A DNA stretch of 64,000 nt from Oscillospiraceae bacterium (lineage in GTDB: Bacteria > Bacillota > Clostridia > Oscillospirales > CAG-272), in NCBI GenBank assembly GCA_015063845.1, contig SVTJ01000001.1, positions 124,001 through 188,000 of the forward strand, given 5' to 3'. The stretch's first letter is position 1. Every line of letters begins with the position of its first letter. Of the stretch, positions 907 to 33,441 are shown in pieces. Both the position numbers and the translations under genes were made by a program. A model generated the notes under the pieces. It searched no databases. It saw nothing but the letters and a program-made list of their open reading frames with translations, and was not told the origin of the DNA.

Positions 907-2277
907 ATGCAAAGGTCAAAAAGATATGTAAATTTTAAAGCTATTGGATTATCACTTATATTCTTGTTCAATCCAAATATCAATATCATAGATGTTCTTC
1001 CAGATTTCATAGGTTACATACTTCTTTGTCTGGCACTTGTTAAGCTTGCGGATCTTAATGATACGCTTTCGGAGGCACTCGATGCTTTTAAAAAGCTTAT
1101 AATAATCGATGCAGCAAAGATACTTGCGCTTATGTGGACCTTTGGTATCAGCGTGAGCAGTGAACGCAACTCATCGATCCTTTTGTGGGCGTTTGTTTTC
1201 GGAGTGCTTGAGCTTATATTTGTGATCCCCGCTTTTATCAAGCTTTTCAAGGGATTGTCAGAGATAGGTTATCTTTATGAGAATAGCTCAATAATCGCCA
1301 GCAAGCGCGCGTATTCAAAAAACAAAACGGACAAACTTTGCGTTTTTACGGTAGTATTTCTTGGATTTAAGGCACTTATGTCGTTTGTCCCAGAGCTATT
1401 GAATTTGACGTCTCCAGAGTATTACGACGGAAATACAACGCAAAATCTCTATCAGTTTATAGGTACTATTCGCCTTTTGGCATTTGTTCCCACGCTTATT
1501 TTCGGTATCGTGTGGCTCTGCCGTGTATTGGCGTATTTCAAAAAGGTAAACAGTGATGAGATACTTATGCCTGCACTTGATAAGGCGTATGCAGAAAAGG
1601 TGCTTCCGAGAGACGGAATATTTATTATAAGAAATGTTACTACGGCTCTTTTGATACTTGCCGTCTCATGTGTGCTTTGTTTTGATCTGAGACTTGAAAA
1701 TATAAACGTTATTCCAGATTTTTTATCTGCTGTACTGCTTATATGCTTTTTTATTGTGCTGGGGAAAAAGATAAAAATAAAAAAGGCAATACCTATATTG
1801 CTGGGTGCCGTATATTTTGTCACATCAGCATTGGCAAGTTTTTTTGAATTTAAGTTCTTTGAGAATTATTATTACAGTGCGGTTTACAGAAGTGCTGACG
1901 CATTGAACGCTTACAGAGCGATGCTGATATCATCAATAGCAAACGTTTTGGCATTTGTTGCAATATTTGTTTGCGTATTGATCTCTCTAAAGAAGATCAT
2001 AGCCGAGCATTGTGGACATATAACGATAAGCGGAGAGAGCGCATCGGGCGCACAGCTTGATATGTCGATAAAGAAAGAGTTGAACAAAAACATAATTATT
2101 TGTGCGGTTGGCTTGGCGGTGTATGCTATTACAAACATTTGCTACGTTCTTCTTGCCAAGGAATACGGTTTTATGTTCTTCATTGATGTTGTTGGAGCAA
2201 TAATATTTGTGGTAACGTTTTTTAAGGCTTATTTTGATATTTCAGCGGCAGTTAAAGCTAAATATATACTGTCATAA
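907..2277 (+). CDS. Unrecognised polytopic membrane protein with an internal repeat
   Basis: A 456-residue integral membrane protein, starting 8 bases after the previous gene behind a GGAGG site. It has about ten hydrophobic stretches and no signal peptide. A motif of the form N-I-N-(I/V)-x-PDF followed by a hydrophobic helix occurs twice, at about residues 24-40 and 264-280, which suggests an old duplication of a membrane module. I cannot assign a function. Co-transcription with the preceding membrane protein is likely from the short spacing. Confidence 0.6.
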   Translation: MQRSKRYVNFKAIGLSLIFLFNPNINIIDVLPDFIGYILLCLALVKLADLNDTLSEALDAFKKLIIIDAAKILALMWTFGISVSSERNSSILLWAFVFGVLELIFVIPAFIKLFKGLSEIGYLYENSSIIASKRAYSKNKTDKLCVFTVVFLGFKALMSFVPELLNLTSPEYYDGNTTQNLYQFIGTIRLLAFVPTLIFGIVWLCRVLAYFKKVNSDEILMPALDKAYAEKVLPRDGIFIIRNVTTALLILAVSCVLCFDLRLENINVIPDFLSAVLLICFFIVLGKKIKIKKAIPILLGAVYFVTSALASFFEFKFFENYYYSAVYRSADALNAYRAMLISSIANVLAFVAIFVCVLISLKKIIAEHCGHITISGESASGAQLDMSIKKELNKNIIICAVGLAVYAITNICYVLLAKEYGFMFFIDVVGAIIFVVTFFKAYFDISAAVKAKYILS

Positions 2278-2290
2278 ATTACCGCCGAAT

Positions 2291-2434
2291 TGTACGAATA
2301 TAACTGTACGATTTGAGCATACTTAATATTGCAAAGGGCAATAGCCCAATGCAAAATCTTGACTTTCAGGCAGGTCTTTCGTTATCGAATTTTCTGTGTA
2401 GGCGTTCATTCCGTCTATGAGGGACGCTTACAGA
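2291..2434 (+). promoter_or_regulatory. Structured leader upstream of a small gene
   Basis: The 181-base gap before the small gene at 2459 contains two possible hairpins. One is GGGC/GCCC at 2336-2347. The other is an 11-bp stem formed by 2397-2407 and 2422-2432 with two or three G-U pairs, ending about 16 bases before the ribosome binding site. This could be a 5' leader that controls the small protein or an independent RNA. I recognise no known riboswitch class. Confidence 0.3.
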
Positions 2435-2458
2435 GATCGTTGATTAAAAGGAGACGTT

Positions 2459-2650
2459 ATGGAAAAGCCGAAAAGCAAGAAGAAAATAGAATACACCTAC
2501 GATATCAACAGGTGTGAAAGTATTTTTGACGCACCCGATGATCAGCCGTACCTCGACAGTACCGAGGGCGGAAAATGGGGAAAGGGAAAGGACGATATGC
2601 CTAACAGCTTATACGATTATACCCCCTATAACAACCCATTGCCATATTGA
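2459..2650 (+). CDS. Small hydrophilic protein of unknown function
   Basis: A 63-residue protein with a Lys-rich N-terminus, an acidic middle and a C-terminus rich in Tyr, Asn and Pro (it ends NNPLPY). AAGGAG lies 5 bases before the ATG, and a strong terminator follows 15 bases after the stop, so the gene forms its own transcription unit. No transmembrane segment, Cys cluster or known domain is visible. Overlapping ORFs in the other frames lack such a site. It looks real but cannot be assigned. Confidence 0.5.
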   Translation: MEKPKSKKKIEYTYDINRCESIFDAPDDQPYLDSTEGGKWGKGKDDMPNSLYDYTPYNNPLPY

Positions 2651-2664
2651 TAGGTGGAAACGAC

Positions 2665-2702
2665 ACCCGACCGATGCTTACGCTTCGGTCGGGTCGCTCT
2701 TT
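2665..2702 (+). terminator. Rho-independent terminator
   Basis: A 10-bp perfect stem (2665-2674 with 2685-2694) is followed by CGCTCTTTTTC. It closes the small-protein transcript and separates it from the SRP RNA promoter. Confidence 0.8.
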
Positions 2703-2737
2703 TTCATAAAAAAGATTTTAAAAATTTTAAAATATAC

Positions 2738-2766
2738 TTGAAAATACAGCTATAATCTGCTATAAT
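2738..2766 (+). promoter_or_regulatory. Sigma-A promoter of the SRP RNA
   Basis: TTGAAA at 2738-2743, a 17-base spacer and TATAAT at 2761-2766. Transcription would start near 2773, about 32 bases before the terminal helix of the RNA, leaving a short 5' leader to be trimmed. Confidence 0.75.
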
Positions 2767-2804
2767 ATATAGGTAACTGAAATTTGGGCAAAAGCCTAAA
2801 TGAC

Positions 2805-3103
2805 AGGCTGTAAAATAAGGCCATACAAGCCGGGGAATTAGCGGAGCCCTGTACCTGAAATCCGCTACAGCAGGGGTGTATTCCTTTTTTGAGGACCGAG
2901 TTTTGGCGGTCTGTTGCCGTTCCTGCTGCGTTGAGGAGTGGGTCTTGCGCAATTAAGGGCTGTGAACCATGTCAGGTGGGGAACCAAGCAGCATTAAGCG
3001 GTTTACTTGATGTGCCGCGAGGTAGCCTGCTCGGAGCAGGAGGTACGGTGTACGCGTGGAAATGACGTTCGATCTTTAGGTGTATGGTCTTATTATGCAG
3101 CCT
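2805..3103 (+). ncRNA. ffs: Signal recognition particle RNA, large Bacillus type
   Basis: This RNA is the scaffold of the signal recognition particle, which binds Ffh and targets membrane proteins co-translationally. The Ffh-binding hairpin is clear near 2968-2996: TGTCAGG, a GGAA tetraloop closed by U-A and two G-C pairs, then AAGCAGCA. The 5' part has the Alu-like segment with GGGGAATTAGCGG and GCCCTGTAC, as in the Bacillus scRNA. The ends pair over about 23 bp (2805-2827 with 3081-3103). The mature RNA probably lies inside, about 2815-3095. It lies directly upstream of dnaX, as in other Bacillota. Confidence 0.92.
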
Positions 3104-3129: not shown

Positions 3130-4710
3130 ATGCATCAGGCATTGTATAGAAAATGGCGTCCGCAAACGTTTGATGACGTATGCGGTCAGGAGCACATTAC
3201 CTCAATTTTAAAATATGAGACTGAGCACAACAAGTTTTCTCACGCATATTTGTTTTGTGGCTCTCGCGGAACAGGAAAGACCACTTGCGCGAAAATACTT
3301 GCTAAGGCTGTCAACTGTGAAAGTCCCGTGAACGGAAGTCCGTGTAACAAGTGCGCGTCGTGTCTCGCAATCGACAGCGGTGCTGCGACGGACGTCCTTG
3401 AAATGGATGCTGCATCGAACAACGGTGTCGATAATATTAGAGACATCAGAGATGAAGTCGTATATATGCCAACGTCGCTAAAATACCGTGTGTATATAGT
3501 CGACGAGGTGCATATGCTCAGTGGAAGCGCTTTTAACGCACTCTTGAAGACGCTTGAAGAGCCGCCTGCTCACGTTGTGTTTGTGCTTGCTACTACCGAG
3601 CTTCACAAGCTTCCAACTACAATTATATCCAGATGTCAACGTTTTGACTTCCGACGTATTTCAACCGAAGTACTTATGGATAGGTTGTCGTATATCGCAG
3701 AAAATGAAGGCATTAAGTATCAAAAAGATGCCTTGCGCGTTATAGCGAAAATAGCCCAGGGCGGTATGAGAGATGCTATAAGCTTGCTTGAGCTTTGCGC
3801 GGGAACACGCAATGAGGTCGATCTTGCTGTCGTTAACGAAACGCTTGGCGCGGGGGATAGAGACAGTATCGATAATACCGTAAGGGCAATTGCGCGAGGT
3901 AATTACGATGCAATATTTGCAACTGTAAACGATGTGGTAAACTCATCAAAGGACATAACGGTATTTTGGGAAGACCTTGCGGCATATTACAGAGATATGT
4001 TGGTTATGAAAACCACCGCTTCCGCTCAAAGGTATCTTGATCTTACAGAAAATGAGAGCGAGCAGCTTAAGGCAACATGTTCTTTGTTTACAAAAGAGAC
4101 ATTGCTCTGGCATTGTAAGGTCATTGACGAAGCGTATCACATTATGAAAAAATCGGGCGGAGCTAAGCGTACCGTGGCTGAAATGGCGCTTATAAGAATA
4201 TGTGACGGAACGCTTGATAATTCCGTTGATGCGCTGTCTTCCAGAATATCAAAGCTTGAAAACGCTTTGGCGTCGGGCGTGTATAAGTCGGCTGCGGCTG
4301 TTGATTCGAATGAGACTAAGGCGAAAGAATCTACTGACACAAAAGCACCTAAAAACGAGGAAGCAGTAGCAGAAACAAAACCAAGTGAACTCCAAAAAGC
4401 AGATACGGGCAAGTGCGAATTGAAGACGCTAAGAGGATGGTACGAGATCGCAGAAAAGGCGGCAGCAGGAGACGCATCGTTGGGTGCATTTCTTAAGATG
4501 GCTAAAGCTTTTGTTGACGAAGACGGAAATATATACGTCAAGTACCCTAACGATTTTGTGAAAACCATGGTTGAAAGTGCTCACGCGGAGGACGCAATAC
4601 TTGCGGCTATCCGTTTGGTGCTTAAAAACGATATTTCACGCGATAAACTCATTTTCGGTATGTTAGACGGTGATGAGAGCGGCGATGAATTTGAAGATAT
4701 GATTATATAA
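3130..4710 (+). CDS. dnaX: DNA polymerase III subunit gamma/tau
   Basis: A 526-residue clamp-loader ATPase, which loads the beta clamp and links the replicative polymerases. Visible features: Walker A GSRGTGKTT at residues 44-52, a four-Cys zinc module just after it (about residues 63-77), the Walker B DEVH motif, and the sensor ISRCQ motif. The C-terminal third (from about residue 390) begins with a low-complexity Lys/Glu/Ala linker, then a tau-like domain. The start follows GAGAGGAGGAGAG. It is followed after 16 bases by ybaB and then recR, the classic order. I saw no convincing slippery site for a gamma-only product. Confidence 0.96.
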   Translation: MHQALYRKWRPQTFDDVCGQEHITSILKYETEHNKFSHAYLFCGSRGTGKTTCAKILAKAVNCESPVNGSPCNKCASCLAIDSGAATDVLEMDAASNNGVDNIRDIRDEVVYMPTSLKYRVYIVDEVHMLSGSAFNALLKTLEEPPAHVVFVLATTELHKLPTTIISRCQRFDFRRISTEVLMDRLSYIAENEGIKYQKDALRVIAKIAQGGMRDAISLLELCAGTRNEVDLAVVNETLGAGDRDSIDNTVRAIARGNYDAIFATVNDVVNSSKDITVFWEDLAAYYRDMLVMKTTASAQRYLDLTENESEQLKATCSLFTKETLLWHCKVIDEAYHIMKKSGGAKRTVAEMALIRICDGTLDNSVDALSSRISKLENALASGVYKSAAAVDSNETKAKESTDTKAPKNEEAVAETKPSELQKADTGKCELKTLRGWYEIAEKAAAGDASLGAFLKMAKAFVDEDGNIYVKYPNDFVKTMVESAHAEDAILAAIRLVLKNDISRDKLIFGMLDGDESGDEFEDMII

Positions 4711-15385: not shown

Positions 15386-16174
15386 TTAGAATGTCTCGAC
15401 TGATTTTTGCAGAAATGCTTGCGTGAGCTGAGATTTAGGAGCGTCAAATACCTCTGAGGGAGTTCCGGTCTCCTCAATAATTCCGTTTGCCATAAATATA
15501 ACTTTGTCCGAAACGTTCTTTGCAAACTCCATCTCGTGAGTTACGACTATCATAGTGCAATCGGTAGATTTAAGATCCTTGATTACACGAAGCACTTCTC
15601 CTGTGAGCTCGGGGTCGAGTGCAGACGTAGGCTCGTCAAAGCAAAGAATGTCGGGAGAAAGAGCAAGCGCTCGAGCGATAGCCACACGTTGTTGTTGACC
15701 GCCAGAGAGCTGGCAAGGATAGCAGTCAGCTTTTTCTGTAAGTCCGACCTGCTCAAGAAGCTTCTTAGCGTGAGCGTTTATTTCCTCAATGCGTGTTTTC
15801 TTTTGTTCCGCGGTGAGTTTTTCCTCTTTTAGACGCATTTTAGGTGCAAGAGTTATGTTATCCAATACGCTGTACTGTGGGAACAGGTTGAAGGATTGAA
15901 AAACAAGCCCAAAATGCAAACGCTTATTTCTTATATCGCTATCTTTATATTTTTTCTTTTGCTCCGCATCGTATATTACATTACCGTCAATCTCGATCGT
16001 ACCAAGGTCAGGCTCTTCGAGAAAATTGAGGCAACGGAGCAGGGTAGTCTTTCCGCTACCCGATGAACCGATTATTGAAAGTACCTCGCCCTTTTCAAGC
16101 GCAAAATCAATTCCTTTGAGGACCTCGGTCTTGCCGAAGCTTTTACGAATATTTTTGATTTCAAGTAAAGCCAT
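15386..16174 (-). CDS. Polar amino acid ABC transporter, ATP-binding protein
   Basis: A 262-residue ABC ATPase of the GlnQ/ArtP type that powers amino-acid import at the inner face of the membrane. Visible: Walker A GSSGSGKTT, a Q-loop (FQSFNLFPQ), the signature LSGGQQQR, Walker [16 protein letters not shown] and the H-loop VTHEM. It is the last gene of a three-gene minus-strand operon, 13 bases after the permease, and its stop lies next to a terminator. Substrate cannot be read from the ATPase. Confidence 0.93.
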   Translation of the reverse strand: MALLEIKNIRKSFGKTEVLKGIDFALEKGEVLSIIGSSGSGKTTLLRCLNFLEEPDLGTIEIDGNVIYDAEQKKKYKDSDIRNKRLHFGLVFQSFNLFPQYSVLDNITLAPKMRLKEEKLTAEQKKTRIEEINAHAKKLLEQVGLTEKADCYPCQLSGGQQQRVAIARALALSPDILCFDEPTSALDPELTGEVLRVIKDLKSTDCTMIVVTHEMEFAKNVSDKVIFMANGIIEETGTPSEVFDAPKSQLTQAFLQKSVETF

Positions 16175-16187
16175 TATGTCCTCCTAT

Positions 16188-16874
16188 TTACGCCTTGAAA
16201 TAGCTCAGGCGTTTTTCAAAGTAATTGAACAGCAGAGTGAGTACACCAACAAACAAGAGATAGAAAACTCCTGTATAGAACAGCGGCCACAGCAATGCAC
16301 GGCTCGCGAGCTGCTCTGCAAGCTTAAGTATCTCAACGACCGAGATAACTCTTGCAAGAGCTGTATCCTTTACCAACGTGATTATCTCGTTGGACATAGG
16401 GGGAATAATTCTCTTGATCACTTGCTTAAGTATTACCTTGAAGAATATTTGCATTTTGGTCATTCCGAGAACCTGACCTGCTTCTCGCTGACCGACGGAA
16501 ATGCTTTCGATACCGCCTCTGTATATCTCGCTGAAATAGCAAGCATAGTTGATAACAAAGGCTATAAGAGCGGACAAGAATCTCGCCGATATCGTAAATT
16601 TAAATCCAAGTACAGTTACCAATAAGTCCGGTAAATGTATATTGAACAGCATGCCCGGAACGTAGAATACTATGAACAACTGAAGCATAAGAGGAACGCC
16701 TCGTATTATCCATACAAATACCTTCATCACATATCTGACAGGCTTAAATTTTGTCATAGTTCCTGCGCAAATAAGAAGACCTAACGGCAGTGCAAATAAA
16801 AGTGTAAGAATGAACAGTAAGCACGTTACCTTAAAGCCTTCGAGCAGAAATAGTGTAACTTCCCAAAAACTCAT
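16188..16874 (-). CDS. Polar amino acid ABC transporter, permease
   Basis: A 228-residue His/Glu/Gln/Arg-type permease with about five hydrophobic segments. The ATPase-contacting EAA loop is visible as EAGQVLGMTKMQIFFKVILKQ. A second membrane stretch near IISVVEILKLAEQ fits the family. It lies between the binding protein (93 bases upstream) and the ATPase gene (13 bases downstream). A single permease gene implies a homodimer. Confidence 0.92.
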   Translation of the reverse strand: MSFWEVTLFLLEGFKVTCLLFILTLLFALPLGLLICAGTMTKFKPVRYVMKVFVWIIRGVPLMLQLFIVFYVPGMLFNIHLPDLLVTVLGFKFTISARFLSALIAFVINYACYFSEIYRGGIESISVGQREAGQVLGMTKMQIFFKVILKQVIKRIIPPMSNEIITLVKDTALARVISVVEILKLAEQLASRALLWPLFYTGVFYLLFVGVLTLLFNYFEKRLSYFKA

Positions 16875-16967
16875 TTTAATATCCTTAAAAAAAATTACTC
16901 AAATAACAGCACCGCAGTCACAAAATGGACTGCGATGCCGTTGATTTATCAGTGTCTGCTATTAGTA

Positions 16968-17798
16968 TCAGTTATACTCGGTGATAACGTAGTTAGAAAG
17001 ACCGTACTTCTCAGCGAGAGCTGCGAGAGTTCCATCAGCAGCAAGCTCTTTGATAGCGCCGTTAACCTTAGCGGTGAGGTCACTGCCTTTCTTGAAGCCT
17101 ACGGAGTATTTCTCAGAGGGAATCTCGATGCTGTCAACGATCGTAAGGGAAGCATAGTCGCCCTTGCCGATAATTGTCTTAGCCATGGTCTTGTCGATAA
17201 CAACAAACTGTACGTTTCCGCTCATAAGCTCGTTAAGAGTAGCTGTCTGAGCTGCACATCCGATATAGTTCTTTTCATCTGCGAGGAAGCCCTTAACGAC
17301 ACCCTCACCGGCAGAGCCTTCCTCAGCTGCGCCCTTCTTGTCAGCGAGAGCCTGTGCGGTATTAAGAGTAGCGGCATTTTCTGCCTTAACTACAACGCAC
17401 TGCTCGTTGTTCATGTAAGCGTAAGAGAAATCTACCTTATCGCTTCTTTGGATACCGTCATCGTCTGCGCAGTTGGAAGTAAAGCCGTTCCAAATGCAGT
17501 TGATAGCGCCGGACTCAAGCTCAAGATACTTGTTGGACCATTCGATAAGCTTGAACTCAACGTCCATACCGAGCTTAGCAGCAACGAGCTGAGCAAGCTC
17601 TGTATCAAAGCCTACGAGGTTGCCACTTGCATCCTTATAGTTCATCGGCTCATAGAGAGTGTAACCAACGATAAGCTTCTGCTTAGGTGCTTCTGTTGTG
17701 TCATCAGCTGCGGGAGCGTCGGCGTTCTCGACGGAACATCCGACAAAAGCGAACAAGCACATAATAAGTGCAAGTGAGAGAGCGATCAATTTTTTCAT
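16968..17798 (-). CDS. Polar amino acid ABC transporter, substrate-binding lipoprotein
   Basis: A 276-residue SBP_bac_3 lipoprotein that captures an amino acid outside the membrane. It has a Lys-rich signal peptide and a lipobox ending FVGC (Cys22), then an acidic/Ala/Pro linker. The domain order is canonical: N-lobe start KLIVGYTLYEPM, GFDTELAQLVAAKLG, and at the C-terminus SVGFKKGSDLTAKVNGAIKE. I chose the start at 17798 because GGAGG lies just before it; an upstream in-frame ATG at 17855 would place a hydrophilic stretch before the signal peptide. It is a useful local control for the permuted protein at 30986. Confidence 0.93.
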   Translation of the reverse strand: MKKLIALSLALIMCLFAFVGCSVENADAPAADDTTEAPKQKLIVGYTLYEPMNYKDASGNLVGFDTELAQLVAAKLGMDVEFKLIEWSNKYLELESGAINCIWNGFTSNCADDDGIQRSDKVDFSYAYMNNEQCVVVKAENAATLNTAQALADKKGAAEEGSAGEGVVKGFLADEKNYIGCAAQTATLNELMSGNVQFVVIDKTMAKTIIGKGDYASLTIVDSIEIPSEKYSVGFKKGSDLTAKVNGAIKELAADGTLAALAEKYGLSNYVITEYN

Positions 17799-17885
17799 AA
17801 TAAAAACCTCCGTACCGAACTTCGTCGGCATAATAATTTTGTTGGCAAAGGTCATTTTAACGCTTTACCTTGATAAAACATTAAT

Positions 17886-30985: not shown

Positions 30986-31882
30986 ATGAAAAAGATTATT
31001 TCTTTGGTTCTTGTAGCAGTTATGCTTGTTTTTTGTCTTGCATCCTGCGCAAAGAAAAACAGTGATTTTGTAGCAACTGATGCTACTGACCTTATCCAGG
31101 AGGATTTTGGTATTGCAGTTCAGAAGGGCAATGCAACTCTTCTCGCTGAGGTCAACAAGGTTGTTGATGCTTGGGTAAAAGACGGTACAATGACTAAATA
31201 CGTTGATTACTATACAGCACTTTCCGATTTCGAAGCAGGTGCTGAGGGCGCAACAAAGCCTGACGCGGGTGATCTTAAGCTCACTTGGGATTTTGGTGCT
31301 GCAACTGAAACTATAACCGTTTACACCGAGTCGGGATTTGCTCCTTTTGAGTTTATCTCTAACGGAAACGTTATCGGTGTTGATATCGCTATCATGAGCG
31401 AAGTAGCTCTTAACATGGGTAAGAAGCTTGACGTTCAGGACGTTGCTTTTGACACTATTCCTACTTGTGTTCAGCAGGCAACGGGTGATGCTGTCGGCGC
31501 GGCAGGTATGACCATTACCGATGAGAGAAAGGAAACAGTTGACTTCTCTAACATTTATTACAGCTCTACTATCGTAGTAGTTTCCGCAAAGGATAAGCCC
31601 ATCTCTACCGTTAAGGATCTCACAGGCCTTAAGGTTGCTGTTCAGGAAGGAACAAGCGGTGATATTATTATCTCTAAGGCAACAACGACTGACGGATATA
31701 AGTATATCACGGAGAACGATGCAGGTGAAGAGGAAGAAGTAACCATCAAGTGCGGCGAGGGAACTGAGGTAGTTCGCTACAAGCAGTACGCTCTTGCTCT
31801 TGAGGATCTTAAGGCAGGAAGAGTTGATGCAATACTTATGGACAAGCTTCCCGCACAGACAATGCTCGCAGTAGCTAACTGA
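30986..31882 (+). CDS. Amino acid ABC transporter binding lipoprotein with apparently permuted domain order
   Basis: A 298-residue extracellular lipoprotein with a lipobox ending LASC (Cys21). The segments of an SBP_bac_3 domain occur in an unusual order. The usual C-terminal segment (EDFGIAVQKGN, then LLAEVNKVVDAW and VKDGTMTKYVDYY) lies at residues 39-76. A linker follows, then the usual N-terminal lobe (ITVYTESGFAPFEFISNG, GVDIAIMSEVALNMG, from about 110) and the second lobe. The chain ends at DAILMDKLPAQTMLAVAN, where the C-terminal segment normally begins. The reading frame is uninterrupted, so this is not a frameshift. Permease and ATPase genes follow. The ATG follows GGAGG. Confidence 0.88.
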   Translation: MKKIISLVLVAVMLVFCLASCAKKNSDFVATDATDLIQEDFGIAVQKGNATLLAEVNKVVDAWVKDGTMTKYVDYYTALSDFEAGAEGATKPDAGDLKLTWDFGAATETITVYTESGFAPFEFISNGNVIGVDIAIMSEVALNMGKKLDVQDVAFDTIPTCVQQATGDAVGAAGMTITDERKETVDFSNIYYSSTIVVVSAKDKPISTVKDLTGLKVAVQEGTSGDIIISKATTTDGYKYITENDAGEEEEVTIKCGEGTEVVRYKQYALALEDLKAGRVDAILMDKLPAQTMLAVAN

Positions 31883-31955: not shown

Positions 31956-32675
31956 GTGTTCTTTGAAACGCTATGGAATAGATTGAGCAGGGCTTTGCTT
32001 GAACAGGGTAGATGGAAAATGTACCTTGAAGGCCTTGGCAATACACTTGTTATTGCACTTATTGCTACGCTTATAGGTACTACTATCGGTGTACTGTTCG
32101 CAATGATCAAGTACATAAATAAAAAAAGCGGTAAGCTTAAGATAATATCAAAGATAGTTGACGTTTACATAACTATCGTTCGCGGAACCCCTGTCGTTCT
32201 TCAGTTGATGATACTCTATTTTATTGTATTCTCTGGTTGGAACAACGGAATAATGATAGGTGCGATAACTTTTGGTATTAACTCGGGTGCGTATGTTGCC
32301 GAGATAGCCCGCGCAGGCTTTGAAAGTGTTGACGACGGTCAGATGGAGGCAGGTAGATCACTGGGTATGTCTACGTGGCAGACTATGTATCATATCATTA
32401 TTCCTCAAGCTGTCAGAAACTGCTTGCCGCCTCTTTTCAACGAGTTTATAACACTTGTTAAGGAAACCGCTATCGTTGGTTACGTTGGAATTATGGACCT
32501 CGGAAAGATACCGGGACTTATACAGTCGAGAACTTTCGACTATTTGTTCCCGCTTTTGATAGCAGCTTTGCTGTATCTTGCGGTCGTAATGGTACTGACA
32601 AAGATATTGCATATTATTGAAAAGCATTTTTCAAAATCCGATAGACGTAGCGGAGGTGTTGCAAATGGAAAATAA
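31956..32675 (+). CDS. Amino acid ABC transporter, permease
   Basis: A 239-residue His/Gln/Glu-type permease with about five membrane segments. The segment [21 protein letters not shown] is the EAA loop that contacts the ATPase, and [17 protein letters not shown] matches the family. The start is a GTG at 31956 with AAAGGAGA upstream. The stop overlaps the ATPase start by 11 bases, which implies coupled translation. A single permease gene again implies a homodimer. Confidence 0.93.
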
Positions 32676-33441
32676 TAATACACCGCTTATTCAAGTAAGA
32701 AATCTTAAGAAAAGTTTCGGTGACGTGGCTGTTCTTGATGATATTTCAACTGATATTTATAAAGGTGAGAGAGTGGTCGTTATCGGCCCGTCAGGATCAG
32801 GTAAGAGTACGTTTTTGCGTTGCCTGAACTGTCTTGAGGACCCTACGGGTGGAGAGATAATATTTCAAAATGAGAATATTGCCGACCCCAAGGTAGATAT
32901 CAACAAACACCGTCAAAACATGGGTATGGTGTTCCAGCAATTCAATCTTTTTAATAACAAGACTGTTCTGCAAAACATTATGCTTGCGCCTATGACCATT
33001 TACGGTAAAAACGCAAAGAAGAACGGAATCGGCAAAAAGCAGTTTGAAGAGCAGTGCAGAGAAAAGGCAATGAGTCTTCTTAAGCGTATTGGTCTTGAAG
33101 ATAAGGCGAACGTTTATCCGTCCACTCTTTCAGGCGGACAAAAGCAAAGAATCGCCATTGTAAGAGCGCTTGCGATGGAACCTGAGGTCATGCTTTTTGA
33201 CGAGCCCACATCTGCTCTTGACCCTGAAATGGTTGGAGAAGTACTTGACCTTATGAAGGAGCTTGCAAAAGAGGGAATGACTATGGTTGTCGTTACTCAT
33301 GAAATGGGCTTTGCCCGTGAAGTCGCGGATAGAATACTCTTTATGTGCGACGGAGTTATTGCCGAAGAAGCGGCTCCCGATGAATTCTTTAATAATCCTA
33401 AAAACCCCAGACTTCAGCAGTTCTTGCAGAAGGTACTTTAA
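32665..33441 (+). CDS. Amino acid ABC transporter, ATP-binding protein
   Basis: A 258-residue ATPase of the GlnQ family. Visible: Walker [17 protein letters not shown]-loop FQQFNLFNN, signature [16 protein letters not shown], Walker [16 protein letters not shown] and the H-loop VTHEMGFA. I chose the ATG at 32665, 7 bases after CGGAGG, rather than an open frame running from 32617 inside the permease. It ends the operon and is followed by a strong terminator. Confidence 0.94.

Follow-up and report, generated by a model that had tools for sequence, protein, structure and literature searches.

The window analysed here, a 64,000-nucleotide stretch of contig SVTJ01000001.1 from an Oscillospiraceae bacterium, carries the gene for a binding lipoprotein of the SBP_bac_3 type whose parts stand in a circularly permuted order. 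The gene occupies 30986-31882 on the plus strand as an intact frame of 298 amino acids, its sequence contains the lipobox LASC with Cys21 as the lipidated residue, and it is followed by an ATP-binding cassette (ABC) importer permease of the HEQRo family and a GlnQ-like ATPase; the first-pass annotation had called both the intact frame and the operon partners correctly. Three segments are distinguished below. N is the first part of lobe 1, M is lobe 2 as far as its final helix, and C comprises the last strand of lobe 2, the second hinge strand and the end of lobe 1. The normal order is N-M-C (NMC), the window protein reads C-N-M (CNM), and another permutation reads M-C-N (MCN).

The C-terminal segment of this gene is now at the front of the lipoprotein, and the earlier observation of its transfer is confirmed. 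The Pfam SBP_bac_3 profile (PF00497) scores 88.5 bits against a curated cut-off of 26.4, with residues 110-220 covering profile positions 1-110 of 132. A phmmer comparison with the solved AncQR (4zv1) breaks into three out-of-order pieces, in which query residues 109-237, 257-290 and 38-73 correspond to residues 11-140, 138-171 and 192-227. A tail profile whose only input was the C-terminal ends of 77 relatives in normal order, searched with the database size set to 1000, matches residues 23-80 (E 6.4e-17, profile positions 2-63 of 66). The segment had been placed right after the lipobox at residues 39-76; the position stands, and the limits are slightly wider. The chain stops where the moved segment would normally start, again as described earlier, and the order is C-N-M instead of the N-M-C of SBP_bac_3 proteins. 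The sister lipoprotein in the same window was rightly described as having the normal order, its Pfam match running over residues 63-285 and profile positions 3-130 of 132.

Relatives support the natural circular permutation that had been proposed. A scan of genome contigs found five Clostridia relatives in metagenome assemblies from deer and goat gut, 66-83% identical to the window protein and all five sharing its segment order across residues 1-298 or 17-297; permease and ATPase lie downstream in the three with frames listed. The ratio of nonsynonymous to synonymous substitution (dN/dS) is low both in the linker and in the segment that moved, and purifying selection maintains the permuted order in these relatives. 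More broadly, a three-segment classifier applied to the frames of 188 loci sorted 163 distinct relatives into 77 NMC, 50 CNM, 35 MCN and one MCNMCN, with no non-cyclic segment order among the 163; the relatives were collected with permuted queries, and 77, 50 and 35 are not population frequencies. At E < 1e-3 the tail profile matches 49 of the 50 CNM and 34 of the 35 MCN frames, every time ahead of the N segment, and all 77 NMC frames, its own training set, every time behind N. Shuffled sequences gave no match (0/162) at the same threshold. Past segment M, 48 of the 50 CNM frames reach their own stop within 1-9 residues, L103 continues for 238 residues, and L014 is truncated by a contig end.

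Table 1. Features of the permuted gene, its operon and the comparison protein in the window.
Feature	Position	Strand	Basis
Circularly permuted SBP_bac_3 lipoprotein, 298 aa, order C-N-M	30986..31882	+	sequence, Pfam, phmmer, three-segment classifier, tail profile
Signal peptide and lipobox, Cys21 lipidated residue	30986..31048	+	sequence pattern
Moved segment C, residues 23-80: final strand of lobe 2, second strand of the hinge and C-terminal portion of lobe 1	31052..31225	+	phmmer, AlphaFold2, tail profile
Linker, residues 83-108, bridging old C-terminus to old N-terminus	31232..31309	+	resembles C-terminal tails of normal-order L085 relatives
Segment N, residues 109-202: N-terminal portion of lobe 1 as far as first hinge strand; carries conserved ligand Arg	31310..31591	+	
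Segment M, residues 207-298: lobe 2, chain end after helix DKLPAQTMLAVAN; carries conserved ligand Thr and Asp	31604..31879	+	
ABC importer permease (BPD_transp_1, HEQRo family)	31956..32675	+	profile matches
ABC importer ATPase, GlnQ-like	32665..33441	+	start is an ATG picked by eye within frame 32617-33441
Sister SBP_bac_3 lipoprotein, normal order, comparison protein	16968..17855	-	

An AlphaFold2 model of the mature window protein, built with 14 rows of permuted relatives, has a mean pLDDT of 93.9 and a pTM of 0.88. Its elements, in full-length numbering, are strands E28-32 and E39-46, helices H50-66 and H68-83, the linker, the N and M elements and a terminal helix, and together they are predicted to form the two-lobe type II fold. 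A second AlphaFold2 model, of the CNM protein L068 from clade II (see below), reached a pLDDT of 92.6 and a pTM of 0.82. VIA-align pairs model residues 85-278 with residues 1-174 of the 238 in LAO, and 89-278 with GlnBP 4-169, with no partner for the first ~84 residues of the model or the final ~60 of the chain. Unpaired ends of this kind, at the start of the model and the end of the other chain, are the pattern that a permutation predicts, and the aligned range begins at model residues 76-89 in 38 of the 50 rows shown. The chain end corresponds to LAO 174 and GlnBP 169, in LAO about 12 residues ahead of the second connecting strand (about 186-194), so that the cut should fall inside lobe 2 and both lobe crossovers should remain. 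On the predicted fold and structural alignment we reject a cut at the hinge, which the first-pass annotation had proposed together with lobes joined by a single strand and a lipid anchor near the hinge. From the alignment and secondary structure, the anchor should instead sit on lobe 2, away from the hinge, having shifted there from lobe 1. The one-crossover arrangement imagined earlier may exist in the MCN group, which is cut at hinge 1.

Several features of the binding protein are shared across segment orders. Not one of the 147 aligned proteins departs from Arg, Asp or Thr in the ligand columns, and the conserved Arg and Asp presumably hold the alpha-amino acid. The median distance from the lipobox Cys to the first segment is 14 residues in CNM, 13 in NMC and 13 in MCN proteins, and the lipobox pattern is present in all 50 CNM frames.

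The CNM order extends over several bacterial families. Counts in whole genomes were made by hand from matches running through the permuted query and are lower bounds at the cut-offs applied: in the window's family, at least 30 of 196 genomes have CNM proteins (at 31 sites, 25 read as sequence), as do at least 6 of 43 in family f106 (all read) and at least 16 of 101 in family f90 (13 read), and the MCN order in at least 32 of 150 in family f52, with the MCNMCN chain in one (all read). At stricter cut-offs, 6 of 394 genomes sampled from the order match, all from the window's family, five with CNM and one with normal order. The class sample gave matches in 18 of 391 genomes, with CNM in three (G000, G774 and G856), and the phylum sample in 12 of 398, with CNM in G634 and MCN in G659 and G682. 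Searches of the window's own genome listed this gene alone; the normal-order sister was not listed either, so a distant permuted paralogue may exist.

MCN proteins (L124, 1189-1998 on the plus strand, L127 and L140-L168) represent a second way in which this fold was permuted in nature, with the cut at the first hinge. They start with lobe 2 and finish at the first hinge, as in L124 and L127. The MCN protein P0003 is 74% identical to the normal-order L170 in N and 63% identical to the normal-order L174 in M-C; a tblastn search of plasmids with P0003 matched 1279 records, eight of which align with 80% or more of the query at a single site. Past their last segment, 24 MCN frames stop within 2-3 residues and 11 continue for 235-248, and the 77 NMC frames stop within 0-40. 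A Pfam permease domain was found in both long frames tested, the CNM frame L103 and the MCN frame L127. L103 (1297-2940, plus strand), which is the same as L138 (1587-3230), encodes a lipobox-bearing CNM binding domain joined at its lobe-2 end to a permease in a chain of 548 amino acids.

Seven further f52 frames (L195-L201) carry N, mostly with C and M ahead of it; the M match is weak (E 0.05-0.2) in L198, L200 and L201, and no C was detected in L197. The permease domain is present in all five of these frames that were tested (L195, L197, L198, L200 and L201; L196 and L199 lay outside the test). L197 (1112-3874, minus strand) combines M ahead of N with permease and ATPase domains in a single chain of 921 amino acids, and its genome, G659, also carries L124, L195 and L196. 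Two composite chains, L180 (2088-4499, plus strand) and L201 (960-3332, plus strand), have M-C at the front, then a normal-order domain (profile positions 4-131 and 1-131, respectively), followed by N and a permease. Possible readings are a permutation intermediate and a permuted domain with a normal one nested inside it.

A route to the order of the window protein is suggested by the locus L085 of genome G907, where two normal-order binding-protein genes stand in tandem (2162-3058 and 3380-4297, minus strand) with a long tail resembling the permuted linker. The two copies are the nearest normal-order relatives of the window protein among those aligned, with 55% (L021) and 49% identity, and their C-terminal tails resemble its C segment and linker. 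A tandem pair with a linker-like tail fits duplication, fusion, and loss of N-M from copy 1 and of C from copy 2, suggesting that the window gene may have arisen in this way. An ordinary SBP_bac_3 gene would have been duplicated in tandem and the copies fused, after which copy 1 would have lost its front and copy 2 its end. A linker of ~26 residues would then bridge the old termini, and the new termini would lie in a lobe-2 loop. Venus-flytrap closure should be intact with both hinge strands retained, lobe 1 would become one continuous stretch of chain and lobe 2 discontinuous, and the lipid anchor would hold lobe 2, not lobe 1.

Taken together, we give a probability of about 85% to the window gene encoding a functional lipoprotein that binds polar amino acids for a three-gene ABC importer, in natural C-N-M permutation derived by tandem duplication, fusion and partial loss. 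The order, its conservation, purifying selection and the confident predicted fold are computed; ligand binding, transport, hinge geometry and the route of origin are inferred. Several points weigh against this reading. In 12 of the 50 VIA-align rows shown, the aligned range begins at model residues 27-30, which places some of the moved segment against a different stretch of the chain. The model was judged by confidence and secondary structure rather than coordinates, with general background values for the lobe limits of LAO and GlnBP. L085 could be a reversion to normal order instead of a survivor of the ancestral state, and no C-N-M-C intermediate was seen among the relatives collected.

The number of origins was approached with two trees. 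A canonical-order alignment dropped 15 of 162 frames with short segments (L171, L147, L129, L099, L132, L060, L086, L089, L062, L113, L102, L090, L121, L014 and L181), was thinned at 88% identity from 147 to 131 rows and gave a quick tree. The core alignment, of 68 proteins with L058 dropped and the window's sister added, gave a careful tree, which requires at least three changes of segment order. A single clade of all CNM proteins was rejected on both, with p-AU (approximately unbiased test) 0.001 and a log-likelihood 68.7 lower on the core, and p 0.0006 and 172.4 lower in the canonical-order tree. Clade I, which includes the window protein, and clade II seem to have been permuted independently at one and the same loop, the alternative being reversions. 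A single MCN origin is not rejected: the constrained tree is 5.0 log-likelihood units better (p 0.565) than the free quick tree, which had split MCN, and the quick search had thus missed that tree.

Additional CNM origins are possible for L016/L097 and for L185; the tests used subsets of 45 and 43 rows besides the core alignment. L185 (1833-2654, plus strand) is a CNM protein with 66% identity to the normal-order L175 and no more than 48% to any other CNM protein, and is possibly a recent separate permutation. Joining it with clade II is not rejected by the careful tree (p 0.478), and against the quick tree the constrained tree is 10.5 log-likelihood units better (p 0.669). A single origin of clade I and L016 has p 0.0019 on the core, where branches are long; for clade I with L016, L097 and L098 the full alignment gives p 0.077, or 0.070 without L098.

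Of the explanations that would remove the permutation itself, an assembly or binning artefact has a negligible chance of being right. The five relatives from the contig scan do come from metagenome assemblies, but the frame is intact with its own signal peptide, and the artefact is ruled out by low dN/dS and by the occurrence of one order in many separate genomes of several families. That residues 23-80 are an added domain or duplicate rather than a moved segment is very improbable and was likewise rejected. Pfam alone, with its partial match, would allow it, but the normal-tail profile covers nearly its full length there, and the CNM frames stop just beyond M (the exceptions being the permease fusion L103 and the contig end of L014), so the duplicate with an original still at the C-terminus that the first-pass annotation had considered is not what these proteins contain.

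Other alternatives accept the permutation and differ on its history and value. One permutation ancestral to all CNM proteins, with the normal-order proteins among them as reversions, is unlikely. It draws some support from tests in which a joint origin is not clearly rejected for clade I with L016, L097 and L098 on the full alignment, though rejected for clade I and L016 on the core, and is not rejected for clade II with L185 (p 0.48), and from L085, a tandem pair being a state from which reversion could arise. Against it stand the rejection of an all-CNM clade in both trees and the several exact reversions, each a permutation in itself, that a single gain would demand. The chances are near even that the permutation is selectively neutral, giving a fold-equivalent protein by duplication and partial loss whose anchor sits on lobe 2 without consequence; ligand residues and tether lengths much alike across the orders agree with this. 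Three observations point the other way and are suggestive only: barring reversions, CNM must have originated two or more times at one loop; each of the three cyclic orders survives; and permuted domains occur fused to permeases. A tentative explanation, which may well prove wrong, is that family-3 binding proteins of one class (labelled Clostridia in five relatives only) underwent three or more permutations, two or more to CNM and one or more to MCN, at two cut sites and with all cyclic orders coexisting. On this view the same lobe-2 loop was reused for the benefit of having the membrane anchor, or the permease itself as in L103 and the MCN fusions, attached to a different lobe; docking of the closed protein on the permease is one process that could gain.

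The sequences indicate that the rearrangement is broader than one gene, probably happened more than once and is kept by selection; its function and selective reason are inferred. Hinge motion, folding, ancestral reconstruction and biosensors are all commonly studied with type II binding proteins as the model, whose permutation, to our knowledge, has for the most part been a matter of engineering. Here permutation appears to have been repeated naturally with normal-order relatives still extant (P0003 and L170/L174; the window protein and L085), and such matched pairs allow the position of chain ends and membrane anchor to be tested against folding, closure and docking. The standard profile covers the permuted protein only partly (110 of 132 positions), and more cases may hide in annotated genomes. 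The window itself holds a second amino-acid importer operon at 15386-17855 on the minus strand (frames 15386-16174, 16188-16874 and 16968-17855), the last frame being the normal-order sister.

No published natural permutation in SBP_bac_3 was found in the open-access literature, which omits most subscription papers; in PMC2912341 and PMC7683729 the term circular permutation appears once each, within the reference lists. No Protein Data Bank chain in permuted order occurs among the matches listed for P0001 (60 of 83), P0003 (60 of 66), A3 (53) and A2 (53). GlnPQ (6h30) has tandem normal-order substrate-binding domains joined to a permease (PMC8025302). M-C of its first domain and N of its second are colinear with the MCN protein P0003, GlnPQ as described there being without a permuted domain, and the colinear matches of P0003 and A3 to 6h30 cross the junction of the tandem domains. 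By analogy, tandem permease-linked domains of this kind are a plausible parent of the MCN proteins.

For an importer binding protein, the open-access literature yielded one natural permutation, TpMglB-2 (Tp0684, 5JX2). This is a lipid-anchored ABC-importer binding protein of type I / cluster B that binds sugar, in which the first three strands of the N-lobe are now C-terminal and a fourth crossover has been gained, for which 'Type Ic / Cluster Bc' was proposed (PMC4990184). It binds ligand and changes shape on binding, relatives of the same topology occur in Gram-positive, often gut, bacteria, and its authors raised tethering as a possible reason for the permutation (PMC4990184). Both TpMglB-2 and the window protein are thus permuted lipid-anchored importer binding proteins, the latter on the strength of its lipobox. 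From that description, the window protein is set apart as a type II protein matching SBP_bac_3 in Pfam, predicted to be cut in lobe 2 and not expected to have an extra crossover; its C-terminal segment has moved to the front with N still ahead of M, in place of a three-strand move with a fourth crossover. No type I binding protein appears among the 50 VIA-align rows shown, judged by titles, though such kinship may exist. The closer comparison is with the type II polar amino-acid-binding proteins LAO, GlnBP, ArgBP, ArtJ and AncQR, to which the window protein is homologous in all three segments. It shares with them the predicted two-lobe fold, the ligand Arg, Asp and Thr, and an operon with a HEQRo permease and a GlnQ-like ATPase, and it differs in reading C-N-M rather than N-M-C, with chain ends and lipid anchor that should lie in lobe 2.
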